A stretch of 64,000 bases of DNA from Muriicola marianensis (GTDB lineage: Bacteria > Bacteroidota > Bacteroidia > Flavobacteriales > Flavobacteriaceae). The notes under the pieces were generated by a model. The model did not search any database. It had not been told where the DNA came from and saw only the letters and a list, made by a program, of their open reading frames with translations. A program made the translations under genes and the position numbers. Of this stretch, positions 1,764 through 5,506 are shown in pieces (within the stretch, counting starts at the first letter, position 1; each line of letters opens with the position of its first letter). The stretch is from NCBI RefSeq assembly GCF_014638095.1, contig NZ_BMFH01000002.1, forward strand, positions 248,001-312,000. The letters are read 5' to 3'.

Positions 1764-4058
1764 ATGAAAAATCAAATGGTTATCGCAATCATATTAAGCC
1801 TCGTGCTGTCGGCCTGCGGACCTAAATACACAGAAGAAAAAAAGGATACGTATATCCTGATCAAAAATGAAGACGGTGCACAGCTGGGTTATTCACCGGA
1901 ATCCGGAGTTAAGGTTCTCGACCAGGACGGTTATGCTTTTAAGGACCTGAATAAGAATGATACGCTGGACGCCTATGAGGACTGGAGGCTCCCAGCTGAG
2001 GAGCGGGCCAAAGACCTGGCATCTCGGATGAGCCTCGAACAGATCGCAGGCCTGATGCTGTATAGCGCCCATCAGGCCATACCTGCGGTTTCGGGAGGAT
2101 ATTTTGGTGGGACCTACAATGGGAAACCGTTTGAAGAAAGTGGGGCAGCACCCAGTGACCTCAACGACGCTCAACTTAAGTTTCTCACAGAAGACCATCT
2201 CCGCCATGTCCTCATAACCGGGGTGAGTTCCCCTGAAGATGCGGCTCTGTGGAACAACAAAGCCCAGGCTTTTGTTGAAAAGATGGGGCTTGGGATTCCT
2301 GTAAACACAAGTTCAGATCCCAGGCATGGGGCAGATTCCTATGCTGAATTCAACGCTGGAGCGGGCGGTGAAATTTCCATGTGGCCCGGGACCCTGGGTA
2401 TTGCTGCTTCTTTTGATCCGGGACTCATGCAGAGATTTGGGGAGATCGCCTCCAAGGAATACAGGGCTTTGGGGGTGGCGACAGCCCTGAGTCCGCAGAT
2501 CGACCTAGGTACGGAACCCAGGTGGAGCCGTTTTGACGGAACCATGGGCGAAGATCCCGATCTGGCGACCGATCTGGCGAGGGCCTATGTGGATGGATTT
2601 CAGTCCTCAGACGATGGAGGCTGGGGCTTTCAGAGCGTAAATGCCATGGTTAAACACTGGCCGGGAGGTGGCCCTGAAGAGGGAGGAAGAGACGGACATT
2701 TTGGCTATGGAGCATATGCTGTATACCCGGGTAAAAATCTATCAGATCAGATAAAACCATTTGTCGAAGGGGTTTTTAAACTGGAAGGGGATACAGGCAT
2801 GGCTTCGGCGGTGATGCCTTATTATACCATCTCCTATGGGCAGGACACCAAATATGGGGAGAATGTAGGTAACGGATACAGTAAGTACCTCATCGAGGAT
2901 GTACTCAGAGGGGAGTACAATTATGACGGAGTGGTATGTACAGACTGGGGGATCACCCGGGATGTCAGCGCTGTAGACCGGTTTGAAGGGAAACCTTGGG
3001 GTGTGGAGGAGCTTTCGGTGGCAGAGCGCCACTACAAAGTGATCATGGCGGGGGTCGACCAGTTTGGTGGAAACAATGACAAGGGACCCGTACTGGAAGC
3101 GTATGCGATGGGAGTGAGGGAACACGGAGAGGAATTCATGCGGAAACGCTTCGAGCGTTCAGCTGTACGTCTGCTCAAAAATACTTTTAGGGTAGGCTTG
3201 TTCGAAAATCCTTATTTGGATGTGGAGGAAACAAAAAAGATTGTTGGTAATCCGGAATTCATGGAGGAAGGGTATCAAGCCCAGTTGCGATCGGTGATTA
3301 TGTTAAAGAACCACGGGAATACCCTGCCGCTGAAGAAAAAACAAAAAGTGTATGCGCCTCAGCGCTACATCGCCCCCAGCACCAACTGGTTCGGGATGCA
3401 ACAACCCGAAAAAACGGTGGATCCCTTTAACCTGGAGGTCGTAAAAGATTATTTTGAAATAGTGGACAGCCCACAGGAAGCTGATTTTGCACTGGTCGGC
3501 ATCGAAAGTCCCAATGGAGGAGTAGGGTATGACCGGATAGATCTTGAAAAGGGAGGAAACGGGTATGTACCCATCAGTCTCCAGTATGGCCAGTACACGG
3601 CGTCTGAGGCAAGGGATGTGAGTATTGCCGGGGGAAGCCCTTTGGAAAATAGTACGGACAGGGCCTACAAGGATAAGTCGTTCACAGCTTACAATATCTC
3701 GGACATGGCCCTGGTCAACAAGACCAAAGAGCAGATGGGAGAGAAACCTGTCGTGGTAGTGGTCAAGGTTGCTAATCCTATGGTATTCTCGGAAATTGAG
3801 AAAAGTGCTTCAGGGATTCTGGCACATATGGGTGTACAGGATCAGGTGCTGATGGATCTGATCAGCGGAGTGGCCGAACCTTCAGCCTTGCTGCCTTTTC
3901 AGATGCCGGCAGACATGGCCACGGTAGAGAAACAGTTTGAGGATCTACCCCGGGATATGGTGCCCTACACGGATGAAGACGGAAATCAATACGATTTCGC
4001 CTTTGGACTCAACTGGGAGGGGGTTATTGATGATGAGCGGGTGGCGAAGTATAAGTGA
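1764..4058 (+). CDS. glycoside hydrolase family 3, beta-glucosidase-like lipoprotein
   Basis: A 764-residue exo-acting glycosidase of family GH3. It begins with a lipoprotein signal (LVLSACGPK, Cys18). The N-terminal TIM barrel contains the substrate-binding KHWPGGG motif around residue 297, and the nucleophile region VVCTDWG, with the catalytic Asp at about residue 393 (the usual motif is SDWG). The C-terminal alpha/beta sandwich includes the LLKNTFRVGLFENPY linker and the MLKNHGNTLPLKK motif that opens it. It probably removes terminal sugars in the periplasm or at the cell surface. It follows the exported isomerase-like gene. GH3 specificity (glucosidase, xylosidase and others) cannot be decided here. 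Confidence 0.92.
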   Translation: MKNQMVIAIILSLVLSACGPKYTEEKKDTYILIKNEDGAQLGYSPESGVKVLDQDGYAFKDLNKNDTLDAYEDWRLPAEERAKDLASRMSLEQIAGLMLYSAHQAIPAVSGGYFGGTYNGKPFEESGAAPSDLNDAQLKFLTEDHLRHVLITGVSSPEDAALWNNKAQAFVEKMGLGIPVNTSSDPRHGADSYAEFNAGAGGEISMWPGTLGIAASFDPGLMQRFGEIASKEYRALGVATALSPQIDLGTEPRWSRFDGTMGEDPDLATDLARAYVDGFQSSDDGGWGFQSVNAMVKHWPGGGPEEGGRDGHFGYGAYAVYPGKNLSDQIKPFVEGVFKLEGDTGMASAVMPYYTISYGQDTKYGENVGNGYSKYLIEDVLRGEYNYDGVVCTDWGITRDVSAVDRFEGKPWGVEELSVAERHYKVIMAGVDQFGGNNDKGPVLEAYAMGVREHGEEFMRKRFERSAVRLLKNTFRVGLFENPYLDVEETKKIVGNPEFMEEGYQAQLRSVIMLKNHGNTLPLKKKQKVYAPQRYIAPSTNWFGMQQPEKTVDPFNLEVVKDYFEIVDSPQEADFALVGIESPNGGVGYDRIDLEKGGNGYVPISLQYGQYTASEARDVSIAGGSPLENSTDRAYKDKSFTAYNISDMALVNKTKEQMGEKPVVVVVKVANPMVFSEIEKSASGILAHMGVQDQVLMDLISGVAEPSALLPFQMPADMATVEKQFEDLPRDMVPYTDEDGNQYDFAFGLNWEGVIDDERVAKYK

Positions 4059-4078
4059 TAGCGCCAGGATTACTTAGC

Positions 4079-4106
4079 CCTGAAGCGTGCTTAGCACTGC
4101 TTCAGG
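4079..4106. repeat. imperfect palindrome, possible terminator of the GH3 operon
   Basis: The outer arms CCTGAAGC and GCTTCAGG and inner arms GTGC/GCAC around TTA form a 12-bp hairpin with one unpaired T. It lies about 20 bases after the GH3 stop codon. No T-run follows, so it is not a classical terminator. Confidence 0.6.
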
Positions 4107-4121
4107 AGCCCTTCGTTACCG

Positions 4122-4137
4122 CCAGTCTTAAGACTGG
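4122..4137. repeat. perfect 16-bp palindrome
   Basis: CCAGTCTTAAGACTGG equals its own reverse complement. It is the second of four different palindromes in 152 bases of intergenic DNA. Confidence 0.75.
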
Positions 4138-4160
4138 TGGCAAATCTCCAGGATTACTCT

Positions 4161-4176
4161 CCCGATAGCTATCGGG
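4161..4176. repeat. perfect 16-bp palindrome
   Basis: CCCGATAGCTATCGGG equals its own reverse complement. Such short GC-capped palindromes recur in intergenic DNA of many Flavobacteriia (recalled, not searched). Confidence 0.75.
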
Positions 4177-4206
4177 ATCGTGATCCTGAGAGCAGTCTCT
4201 CCTGCA

Positions 4207-4230
4207 AACCTGCCTGCCGGCAGGCAGGTT
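4207..4230. repeat. perfect 24-bp palindrome
   Basis: The half-site AACCTGCCTGCC is followed directly by its reverse complement GGCAGGCAGGTT, with no spacer. This is the longest perfect palindrome in the cluster. A related shorter core, CCTGCCGGCAGG, occurs inside the ABC permease gene near 39230. Confidence 0.8.
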
Positions 4231-4499
4231 CCGATTTCCTTATGGTTCCGTAAACTAAATGAATGGCGTGCCAAACCTTCGGGATTAAAGGCAGGATTAC
4301 CTTCGGTGGTCCTGATAGTGCCCCCGCCTGAAAATAGTCCAAACAAAAAAACGCTCAAGCGAGCTTGTTGGGATTACGTCGCTTAGCGCCGTTTTCCTAT
4401 CCAGCTCCGTAGTCTAAATGAAAAGCTCCCAGCTTTCGCTGGGCTGCTCTTTCTTTCTTCACTTCGGCCTGCAAGGGAGCTTGCGCCTTGTTCGAAAAG
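4231..4499. other. non-coding stretch with degenerate repeats
   Basis: I see no convincing gene here. Short open frames on both strands (about 4128-4386) run through the palindromes, have no recognisable protein features and no start signals. The stretch includes another small hairpin (CCCAGC/GCTGGG around 4429-4444). It looks like decayed or repeat-rich spacer between the GH3 gene and the tRNA. Confidence 0.5.
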
Positions 4500-4527
4500 A
4501 AAAAGCCCGCCTTTCAGGCGAGCTTTT
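4500..4527 (-). terminator. rho-independent terminator of tRNA-Arg
   Basis: On the minus strand AAAAGCTCGCCT and AGGCGGGCTTTT pair around a short loop and run into a T-rich tract. It lies 11 bases past the 3' end of the tRNA, where its terminator is expected. Confidence 0.75.
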
Positions 4528-4537
4528 CATTCTTAAG

Positions 4538-4611
4538 TGACCACGCCAGGATTCAAACCTGGAACCTTCTGAGCCGTAATCAGATGCGCTATTCAGTTGC
4601 GCCACGTGGCC
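4538..4611 (-). tRNA. tRNA-Arg (anticodon ACG)
   Basis: A 74-base cloverleaf on the minus strand. The acceptor arms GGCCACG and CGTGGTC pair, with one G-T wobble. The D-arm uses GCGC/GCGC; the anticodon stem TCTGA/TCAGA holds loop TTACGGC (anticodon ACG, read as ICG). The T-stem CCAGG/CCTGG holds TTTGAAT. The discriminator is A, and CCA is not encoded. Its 5' end overlaps the 3' end of the GIY-YIG gene: the stop codon of that gene lies in the D-loop. The gene seems intact. A second, broken copy of the 5' half lies about 300 bases upstream. Confidence 0.95.
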
Positions 4612-4841
4612 GATTTAATGTATTCCCTTCCTTTACAGGTTTTTAAAAATTTCTCTCTTTTGATTGCTTCTTCTTTGGTGTCAAATTCTTCGCATAAGAT
4701 CAATTCCCATGGTAAATAAGGCTTTGTAGATTTATTTTTTCCGCCATTGTGCTGTTTTAGTCTTCTAACGGGATTTCGAGTAAAACCTACATAATTTCTG
4801 TCAAAATTTAAACTCTTAAGAACGTAAACAAAATATTTCAT
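4593..4841 (-). CDS. small GIY-YIG endonuclease overlapping tRNA-Arg
   Basis: An 82-residue single-domain GIY-YIG nuclease, the DNA-cleaving fold shared with UvrC and homing endonucleases. It starts MKYFVYVLKS (the GIY strand as VYV), followed by RNYVGFT (the YIG strand as YVG), the conserved Arg in RRLKQHN, and the catalytic Glu in KREKFLK. I chose the ATG at 4841. The frame stays open upstream to a GTG at 4910, but that extension only translates a tRNA fragment and hairpins. The last codons (SATWRN) and the stop lie inside the D-arm of the tRNA, so the protein and tRNA share 19 bases. Association with the duplicated tRNA half suggests a small mobile or domesticated element. Confidence 0.85.
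   Translation of the reverse strand: MKYFVYVLKSLNFDRNYVGFTRNPVRRLKQHNGGKNKSTKPYLPWELILCEEFDTKEEAIKREKFLKTCKGREYIKSATWRN
4597..4617. repeat. 21-bp direct repeat, copy 1 (5' end of intact tRNA-Arg)
   Basis: The 21 bases reading TTGCGCCACGTGG then CCGATTTA on the plus strand are identical to 4902-4922. This copy is the first 15 bases of the intact tRNA plus 6 bases of its 5' flank. Confidence 0.9.
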
Positions 4842-4922
4842 GAACCTTTGATGCGCCCCGCCAAGGGCGGGCTCGTATTCAGCGCGTCCGCCTTGGGCGG
4901 ATTGCGCCACGTGGCCGATTTA
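4842..4922 (-). pseudogene. broken 5' half of tRNA-Arg with two palindromic insertions
   Basis: On the minus strand this segment repeats the 5' part of the intact tRNA-Arg in order: the 21-base acceptor/D-stem block (4902-4922), then CTGAATA (4876-4882), then GCGCATC (4850-4856), and possibly AAGGTTC (4842-4848). The first three blocks are contiguous in the intact tRNA (4583-4617). Here they are separated by two 19-base GC-rich insertions, 4883-4901 and 4857-4875, each able to form a hairpin (TCCGCC/GGCGGA and CCCGCC/GGCGGG). The anticodon arm is missing, so it cannot make a working tRNA. The GIY-YIG start codon follows directly. Confidence 0.75.
4902..4922. repeat. 21-bp direct repeat, copy 2 (upstream tRNA fragment)
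   Basis: Identical to 4597-4617; the two copies are exactly 305 bases apart and bracket the GIY-YIG gene. Confidence 0.9.
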
Positions 4923-4993
4923 GATTCCCCTAAGTAAGGGCCTGCAAATATATTTCTTTTTACTTTTAAGGCAAAATAACCTAAGCCAATTCC

Positions 4994-5506
4994 ATGGATT
5001 TTAAACAGTACGTAAGGGATATAGAAGATTTTCCCAAAAAGGGAGTGGGTTTTAAGGATATTACCCCTTTGCTAAAGGATCCCAAAGCATTTAAGGCTGC
5101 TGCTGATGCCTTGCTGGCGTTTATAGGGGATGAAAAAATTGATGTAGTTGTGGGGATGGAAAGCCGGGGATTTTTTTACGGTCCGGTACTGGCGCTTGCT
5201 CTCAACGCCGGATTTGTTCCCGTCAGGAAGGTTGGTAAGCTGCCCCATCAAAAGATCAGTCATACTTACGATCTGGAATACGGCACAGATACCCTCGAGA
5301 TCCATGCAGATGCCATCAATCCAGGTGACCGGGTGGTCATTCATGATGATGTCCTGGCGACTGGCGGAACGGCCAGGGCCACATGCAAGTTGATAGAAGC
5401 CCTGGGTGGGGTGGTGGTGCAGTGCAATTTCCTCTTGGAACTCACGATGCTCCATGGGGCCTCAAAATTGGAAGGCTATTCCGTAAAATCGTTGATGCGT
5501 TATTGA
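4994..5506 (+). CDS. apt: adenine phosphoribosyltransferase
   Basis: A 170-residue cytosolic enzyme that salvages adenine by joining it to PRPP, giving AMP and pyrophosphate. The start YVRDIEDFPKKGVGFKDITPLLKD is the family hallmark, shown here as IEDFPKKGVGFKDITPLL. VVGMESRGFFYGPVLA is the flexible catalytic segment, and VVIHDDVLATGGTA is the PRPP-binding loop near residues 117-130. The length matches the family. The stop codon overlaps the end of a small convergent gene by 7 bases. Confidence 0.97.
   Translation: MDFKQYVRDIEDFPKKGVGFKDITPLLKDPKAFKAAADALLAFIGDEKIDVVVGMESRGFFYGPVLALALNAGFVPVRKVGKLPHQKISHTYDLEYGTDTLEIHADAINPGDRVVIHDDVLATGGTARATCKLIEALGGVVVQCNFLLELTMLHGASKLEGYSVKSLMRY

Follow-up and report, generated by a model that had tools for sequence, protein, structure and literature searches.

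A small GIY-YIG nuclease gene between a broken and an intact tRNA-Arg gene in Muriicola marianensis: a probable homing-type element of tRNA genes

The window analysed here, a stretch of 64,000 nucleotides from the genome of Muriicola marianensis, contains only one tRNA gene detectable by ARAGORN, tRNA-Arg(ACG), and this gene is physically tied to a small nuclease gene (Table 1). On the minus strand, the order is a TATATTTG box, a broken 5' copy of tRNA-Arg(ACG), a GIY-YIG gene, and the intact tRNA-Arg(ACG). The final codons of the nuclease gene lie inside the intact tRNA, with the TGA stop formed by tRNA nucleotides 17-19 in the D-loop. The first-pass annotation of this DNA had described this overlap with an 82-codon GIY-YIG gene as well as an exact 21-bp direct repeat; ARAGORN, Rfam, and Pfam confirm the former, and a mechanical repeat search recovered the latter with a spacing of 305 bp. 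The broken copy is composed of tRNA nucleotides 1-15, a hairpin, nucleotides 16-22, a hairpin, nucleotides 23-29, and a 7-nt match to nucleotides 44-50, and its D-arm holds two perfect GC palindromes, TCCGCCcaaGGCGGA and CCCGCCcttGGCGGG. The TAnnTTTG box, which we take to be the Bacteroidota -7 motif, occurs only once on the minus strand of positions 4531-5000, and also precedes the tRNA in G002, a relative in which the site is empty. Since this sole box lies upstream of the remnant, the intact tRNA is probably transcribed through the remnant and the nuclease gene. The divergent gene beyond it is presumably apt.

Table 1. Features at and around the tRNA-Arg(ACG) locus of the window
Feature	Position	Strand	Evidence or remark
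Intact tRNA-Arg(ACG), working copy	4537-4611	-	ARAGORN; Rfam tRNA 58.6 bits at 4538-4611
82-aa GIY-YIG nuclease gene	ATG 4841 to stop 4593	-	Pfam GIY-YIG 6.5e-17, 62 bits
Broken 5' copy of tRNA-Arg(ACG)	4842-4916	-	Extends past the 21-bp repeat, up to the start codon
Palindrome TCCGCC-loop-GGCGGA	4887-4901		In D-loop part of broken copy
Palindrome CCCGCC-loop-GGCGGG	4857-4871		Immediately before D-stem 3' strand of broken copy
21-bp direct repeat, upstream copy	4902-4922		Exact-repeat search; outer part of broken copy
21-bp direct repeat, downstream copy	4597-4617		5' end of intact tRNA-Arg plus 6 nt of leader
TATATTTG, TAnnTTTG box	4945-4952	-	Promoter-like; upstream of broken copy
Adenine-phosphoribosyltransferase-like gene, divergent	4994-5506
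AATCCTGGCGCTAT	4058-4071	-	11/14 match to T-arm/acceptor 3' part of tRNA-Arg; weak
T-arm-like fragment adjoining palindrome TCCCGATAGCTATCGGGA (4160-4177)	4142-4177	-	10/14; fragment weak
Palindrome AACCTGCCTGCCGGCAGGCAGGTT	4207-4230		Downstream of intact tRNA-Arg

Downstream of the intact tRNA-Arg are three weak T-arm-like fragments (11, 10, and 9 of 14 positions). Three matches of such size, including one of 11, were found in one of 256 window segments of equal length, although the identity of that segment was not recorded. From its sequence, AATCCTGGCGCTAT is possibly the decayed 3' half of the resident tRNA, but the match is weak. The 20-bp core of AACCTGCCTGCCGGCAGGCAGGTT has five copies in the genome, none of them more than 360 bp from a tRNA. 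As a side observation, positions 4040-4536 of the window, with terminator-like hairpins, T-arm-like fragments, and two palindromes, look like the tRNA 3' debris that follows other tRNAs of the genus.

Eight other genomes of the genus were compared, and DNA of the locus was matched in six of them, with no match in G004 and G007. The tRNA-Arg(ACG) site is filled in the window's genome (G000) and in G001, which carries the same insertion with a nuclease 84% identical to that of the window, and it is empty in G002, G005, G006, and G008; in G003, the match was confined to the interior of apt. Each empty site has one tRNA-Arg(ACG) adjoining the same gene as in the window, with no copy of the tRNA 5' end in the 400 nt upstream (best 7/12) and no GIY-YIG ORF on the retrieved stretch. 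This is exactly the state that the first-pass annotation had proposed for an empty site, one tRNA-Arg with neither repeat nor nuclease. The outcome named there as a refutation, that all relatives would carry the same arrangement with diverged, non-tRNA flanks, did not hold. Presence in two genomes and absence in four at one site in close relatives meets a criterion for homing elements. The sequence of the intact tRNA-Arg(ACG) is identical in G000, G001, and G002.

Pairs of a nuclease and a tRNA occur in two mirror forms. In type A, to which the window belongs, the order is 5' remnant, nuclease, and intact tRNA, and in type B it is intact tRNA, nuclease, and 3' remnant. With at least 10 of 12 identical tRNA end bases required for a remnant, a copy of the initial 12 nt of the tRNA is found shortly before the nuclease in 30/33 type-A pairs versus 1/32 unrelated flanks, which excludes a chance repeat, and a 3' remnant was found in 19/31 type-B pairs versus 2/27 unrelated flanks. 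Among the 12 type-B pairs lacking a 3' remnant are some that do not represent genuine type-B units, for example L120, which lies at a contig end, L125, and L150. The pairs of either type are not independent, and non-units were kept in the counts (L114 in type A; L125, L150, and L184 in type B). An assembly artefact is excluded by the same layout in many genomes, including the single-contig genomes G002 and G301. Thus, the earlier expectation that such nucleases are preceded by a fragment of the same tRNA holds for the window's layout but did not cover the mirror type, which is also common (19 versus 30 remnants).

The junctions are often sharp. With pairs lacking a remnant and five duplicate or artefact loci set aside, the type-A nuclease stop lies inside the intact tRNA in 19/30 units, at nucleotides 8-10 (TAG) in nine and nucleotides 21-23 (TAG) in six. 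The first tRNA block ends at nucleotides 21-24 in 16/26 type-A remnants, and in six of those 16 (three Leu, Arg-TCG, Arg-CCG, and Arg-TCT) the tRNA resumes directly after 19-21 extra bases. Among the type-B remnants with blocks on both sides, 6/11 jump from nucleotides 26-28 to nucleotides 44-47, with the anticodon arm replaced. Most loci lack the opposite half of the resident tRNA; it was found beyond the intact copy in 5/33 type-A, 8/30 type-B, and 6/17 Patescibacteria cases, where 0.2, 0.1, and 0.1 were expected and a reverse-complement control gave 1, 0, and 0. These counts include array or artefact cases (L114, L125, L184, and L196), and L271 may be due to chance. At L251 (Cys), L255 (Ser), and L263 (Thr), the acceptors of the outer halves, compared by eye, match each other and differ from that of the enclosed intact tRNA, so that the cassette appears to carry a complete, different tRNA. 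Judged by sequence, these three are the clearest form of the arrangement, a tRNA gene split around a nuclease and a substitute tRNA.

An integrase island at a tRNA gene was rejected as an explanation, since the unit contains no tyrosine or serine recombinase and holds only the GIY-YIG ORF (cutoff, 60 aa), and a group I intron was rejected since Rfam matches (E up to 1) in window positions 3900-5100 included no intron family. It could still be argued that the unit is the last fragment of an integrase island or phage with a tRNA attachment site, as such elements classically attach at tRNA genes, which are restored upon integration. However, no ORF of at least 60 aa other than GIY-YIG was found within the 305-bp unit, the compact layout recurs in many families, and 5' and 3' remnants both occur; we find such an origin scarcely credible.

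Several loci carry further tRNA debris. ARAGORN calls the broken tRNA-Val copy at L114 a tRNA-SeC (TCA), and such remnants can therefore give false tRNA-SeC annotations. At L004 and L020, several more tandem broken tRNA-Pro(GGG) copies with hairpins lie between the nuclease and the intact tRNA. At five tRNA-Asn loci (L009, L011, L012, L015, and L018), the nuclease follows tRNA 3' fragments, terminators, and palindromes, which suggests repeated old insertions.

Units also stand head to tail. Three were found at Pro-GGG with a 304-bp period (L154), and among the matches listed there are at least five at 365 bp (G236), at least five at 450 bp (G301), and at least four at 322 bp (G251), while L187 has eight nuclease ORFs in an array. 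In addition, a scan covering 30/38 tRNAs of G000 found palindrome-bearing remnants without a nuclease before Leu-TAA (two in tandem; L058/L218), Leu-TAG (L219), Arg-CCT (L215), and Arg-TCT (L041). At Arg-CCT, the nuclease is present in G001 and G002, and only a remnant is left in G000, so units seem to lose the nuclease and decay. It is possible that the broken copies without a nuclease in G000 are non-autonomous or decayed units.

Perfect palindromes with arms of at least 6 nt are present in 22/30 type-A and 10/19 type-B remnants, compared with 3.4 and 1.7 in dinucleotide shuffles and 5/30 and 3/19 in flanks; the other 8/30 and 9/19 remnants have no perfect arm-6 palindrome. Where present in remnants, palindromes often sit at the borders of tRNA arms. 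In the 3.03-Mb genome of the window, CCTGCCTGCCGGCAGGCAGG has five copies, all within 360 bp of a tRNA, and CCCGATAGCTATCGGG has five copies, four of them within that distance, so that 9/10 palindrome sites are near a tRNA. Exclusivity of the palindromes to tRNA neighbourhoods thus holds in this genome but fails in the family, where only 4/17 palindrome loci of other genomes (one per genome, of many matches) are near a tRNA and 13/17 have no tRNA within 330 bp. The identical 20-mer lies in tRNA remnants at two Patescibacteria loci (L254 and L271). A REP/RAYT system was rejected because there is no Y1-type transposase and the unit's only gene is a GIY-YIG gene by Pfam.

Alternatively, the palindromes themselves may be the mobile, REP-like units and the GIY-YIG protein the enzyme that mobilises them, with tRNA genes favoured as landing sites because they form hairpins. 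The placement of CCTGCCTGCCGGCAGGCAGG and CCCGATAGCTATCGGG, the identical 20-mer in Patescibacteria, and the remnants that have palindromes but no nuclease at Leu-TAA, Leu-TAG, Arg-CCT, and Arg-TCT are compatible with this, whereas the variation of palindromes between units, the sizeable share of remnants without one, and the family loci away from any tRNA are not easily accommodated. We consider this alternative quite improbable. Double-hairpin elements are known from Allomyces mitochondria. Mitochondrial double-hairpin elements resemble the palindromes described here as short GC-rich hairpins inserted at several sites, but they are organellar, and the part of the source available to us gives no link to a tRNA-splitting nuclease (PMC10085805).

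In the window's genome, all three small stand-alone GIY-YIG genes adjoin a tRNA (Leu-CAA, Arg-ACG, and Pro-GGG), and the other three GIY-YIG matches lie within long reading frames. The family and genus loci listed and retrieved gave at least 114 distinct small GIY-YIG ORFs. The retrieved stretch includes a tRNA for 35 of them, always on the nuclease's strand, and none for the other 79. A tree of 151 rows, built without near-identical proteins (>88%) or unlinked contig-edge ORFs, has a canonical GIY-YIG group of 61 rows, only one of which has a tRNA neighbour (His, 486 nt off), and another side of 90 rows, 69 of which have one. The tRNA-linked and the canonical small GIY-YIG proteins are different proteins. 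A profile of 21 tRNA-linked proteins matches 158/247 genomes of the phylum at E<=1e-8, and a same-strand tRNA lies within 180 nt in 25/29 retrieved loci (L156-L184; one per genome, with top scores). The loci without such a tRNA are L160, L162, L169, and L178, the last three of them near contig ends. These rates apply to the tRNA-linked lineage, from which the profile was derived. Within the phylum, tRNA-linked nucleases accompany, on the same strand, tRNA genes of ten amino-acid classes. The first-pass annotation had noted a frequent association of small GIY-YIG proteins with tRNA remnants; a tRNA link applies to the lineage just described but not to the canonical group, 60/61 rows of which have no tRNA link. 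A lack of association beyond chance among homologues, which would have refuted its proposal, is not what the 25/29 phylum loci indicate.

A single-protein scan of genome contigs gave eight loci, including Marinilabiliales and Bacteroidetes MAGs, and from these named relatives the surveyed phylum is inferred to be Bacteroidota. Among them, an Ignavibacteria MAG has a tRNA-Ser unit (L209), and a Parcubacteria MAG (L210), the phylum of which is taken to be Patescibacteria, has a tRNA-Arg-like remnant layout by eye with no tRNA called by ARAGORN. ARAGORN found no tRNA at L211, L208 yielded no row, and a Xanthobacteraceae locus (L212) has a tRNA-Pro 89 nt upstream without a clear remnant. In Patescibacteria, the profile matches 105/145 genomes, and 17 of the 31 nuclease ORFs in 30 retrieved loci have an intact tRNA on their own strand no more than 110 nt downstream, while 14/31 do not. 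A phage collection gave three records, at 39% identity. Separately, Rfam placed three of 20 nuclease loci that are without a tRNA or at an edge (L258, L274, and L136) downstream of a same-strand tmRNA gene, at distances of about 120-155 nt in the first two and 410 nt in L136. From this position, the nuclease may also target tmRNA genes at their tRNA-like end, although no tmRNA remnant was found at these three loci.

In 21 aligned tRNA-linked proteins including that of the window, Y, G, R, H, E, and K positions are invariant (Y6, Y17, G19, R27, H31, and E63), which satisfies the GIY-YIG superfamily criterion of conserved Tyr/Gly, Arg, and Glu. Purifying selection acts on the nuclease: the window gene and its G001 orthologue differ by dN 0.083 and dS 1.45 (dN/dS 0.057, tRNA-overlapping codons excluded), and dN/dS is 0.077 for the Pro-GGG nuclease of the same two genomes, 0.18-0.26 for other pairs, and 0.06-0.40 on few changes for array units, with one pair undefined. 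Labels were mapped on a tree of 32 rows, one per host family and amino acid, from which L082 (tRNA-His 486 nt off, judged chance) was removed by hand and in which L114 was assigned to Val, given that ARAGORN reports its broken copy as tRNA-SeC. The amino-acid label requires 18 changes, versus a mean of 23.2 and a minimum of 19 in 300 shuffles, whereas host family is not clustered (24 versus 22.2 shuffled). Insertion side, 5' or 3' type, needs 10 changes versus 10.9 shuffled and is thereby excluded as a property of nuclease lineages. Leu nucleases of four host families cluster, as do Pro nucleases of three, and both groups mix sides; two of the five Pro nucleases (L165 and L200) fall outside the Pro group. 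Because most inner forks are weak, the tree gives clustering rather than a resolved history. With this reservation, the nuclease lineage appears to follow tRNA identity and not host family, as a homing element should.

These results also bear on a purely host-based explanation, in which duplication and decay of tRNA genes leave copies between which a useful GIY-YIG gene is retained for its promoter. Small canonical GIY-YIG proteins are indeed common without any tRNA link, as seen in their part of the 151-row tree. But the same architecture is repeated at tRNAs of ten amino-acid classes, with sharp tRNA breakpoints, empty sites, and arrays, and nuclease lineages track tRNA identity across host families, so we give this explanation very little weight.

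By sequence, the nearest solved relatives of the tRNA-linked nuclease profile are UPF0213 and SLX1-type GIY-YIG proteins (PDB 1zg2, 1ywl, and 7cq2), although the canonical small group, as noted, is not found beside tRNAs. Given the structure specificity of SLX1, the tRNA-linked nuclease could recognise hairpin-forming tRNA arms in DNA, but this is speculation. The target could instead be RNA, the nuclease acting on tRNA or tRNA-like RNA and the broken copy being a structured RNA (a decoy, antitoxin, or autoregulatory leader) rather than a scar. In the alignment of G000 and G001 by eye, tRNA-derived positions and palindrome arms of the broken copy are unchanged up to GCGCATC, with differences limited to loops and one linker base, despite the saturated synonymous sites of the nuclease gene. 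Similarly, the broken Pro-TGG copy at L150 retains nearly the whole tRNA with the T-arm replaced, and its RNA folds much like the intact tRNA. Both observations speak for an RNA-level system. However, the remnant precedes the gene in type A and follows it in type B, and often lacks half the tRNA; the tRNA part could be kept by gene conversion; and the solved relatives with a named function include SLX1 and an intron-associated endonuclease, both DNA nucleases. On balance, we regard an RNA-level system as unlikely, without dismissing it.

It is likely, in our judgement, that the unit is a homing-type selfish mini-element specialised on tRNA genes, which splits its target tRNA and supplies a working copy. 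Comparison of genomes shows the architecture, the presence or absence at a site, the recurrence on many tRNAs, the tandem arrays, the target-following lineages, and the purifying selection; cleavage, mobility, and the role of the palindromes are inferred. Such a unit would consist of one GIY-YIG gene and a working copy of the target tRNA inside a resident tRNA gene, of which the 5' half, the 3' half, or both persist. The nuclease would cut the uninterrupted tRNA gene in the region of the D-arm or anticodon arm, repair from an occupied copy would install the unit, and the intact tRNA copy would keep the host alive, which would make it a natural 'home-and-rescue' element. Since rescue would come from a second copy and not from splicing, insertion into an essential RNA gene would be tolerable. 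In the 5' type, transcription of the nuclease would probably start at the promoter of the tRNA itself, with the tRNA then excised from the shared transcript. Repeated cuts in the intact copy followed by repair would produce the tandem arrays. The palindromes probably make the remnant unusable both as a tRNA and as a nuclease target and break up the direct repeat, although this is the least certain step.

Several observations count against this reading, among them the palindromes away from tRNAs in other genomes, the type-B pairs without a 3' remnant, the frequent absence of the opposite half, the loci without a tRNA in the scored place, and the two Pro nucleases outside their group on a tree with mostly weak forks. 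The intact tRNA of the window, being identical to that at the empty site of G002, should remain cleavable. Moreover, homing nucleases such as I-TevI have a separate DNA-binding part, whereas the window protein is little more than a catalytic domain without one, and specificity for a long site is therefore unexplained. The first-pass annotation had inferred a minimal tRNA-targeting element that regenerates the tRNA gene at each insertion; the empty sites and the tRNA association support it, but movement of the unit and the nuclease as its driver remain inference.

Group I introns with homing endonucleases occur in tRNA anticodon loops, and like the proposed element they are selfish DNA with a homing nuclease in tRNA genes. 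However, they splice, while the window unit would rely on rescue by a second tRNA copy and has no intron family by Rfam. Homing ORFs that replace gene ends are already known, in mitochondria. In the fungal mitochondrial mobile ORFs of Allomyces atp6 and Glomus atp6, atp9, cox2, and nad3, as described in the portion of the source available, an essential gene has received an endonuclease ORF along with a substitute for its end, and the displaced native end may decay; the endonuclease of the Glomus atp9 mobile ORF is a GIY-YIG protein (PMC3630166). The window unit meets the same criterion of a nuclease ORF plus a duplicated part of the interrupted gene, but the fungal ORFs, by that account, affect C-terminal ends of mitochondrial protein genes and the window unit bacterial tRNA genes of many kinds, and the same portion mentions no palindromic arms, mirror 5' type, or tandem arrays for the former (PMC3630166). 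SegB of phage T6, according to the accessible part of its report, is a free-standing GIY-YIG homing endonuclease beside tRNA genes of many isotypes, with nuclease-dependent tandem amplification of nuclease and tRNA; the nuclease 3' end shares microhomology with the 5' end of the tRNA (PMC13096335). The head-to-tail unit arrays resemble this SegB-dependent amplification, but SegB is a phage gene, and that part of the report describes neither split tRNAs nor palindromes (PMC13096335). By analogy, the simplest account of the window unit would be a tRNA version of the fungal mitochondrial mobile ORFs, with cleavage and movement inferred. No description of such tRNA-splitting nuclease units turned up in searches of a library of open-access papers, subscription papers and preprints being outside the scope of the search, and the recurrent architecture is apparently undescribed.

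More broadly, and only as a tentative proposal that falls somewhat short of an even chance, these units may represent bacterial 'cleave-and-rescue' selfish genes, in which an essential tRNA gene is destroyed by a single small nuclease and replaced by the tRNA that the element brings along, so that cells come to depend on the element. They would have radiated to tRNAs of at least ten amino-acid classes and would be present in Patescibacteria as well as in Bacteroidota (with Ignavibacteria), with tRNA arms swapped for palindromic hairpins and the hosts' tRNA genes replaced by foreign ones over time. A new class would be justified if cleave-and-rescue behaviour is shown, and the nuclease lineages matched to tRNA types make target recognition by a minimal GIY-YIG protein directly testable. 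tRNA genes are essential, and they are usually viewed as targets of integrases, their ends being restored on integration. Here, the entire parasite appears to consist of one 80-residue nuclease and one tRNA, which may place it among the smallest of autonomous mobile elements. If true, this would provide a natural counterpart of synthetic rescue-type gene drives and a route for the horizontal replacement of essential tRNA genes, and it would explain why these bacteria have tRNA pseudogenes, arrays of tRNAs, and some of the palindromic repeats that surround their tRNA genes.
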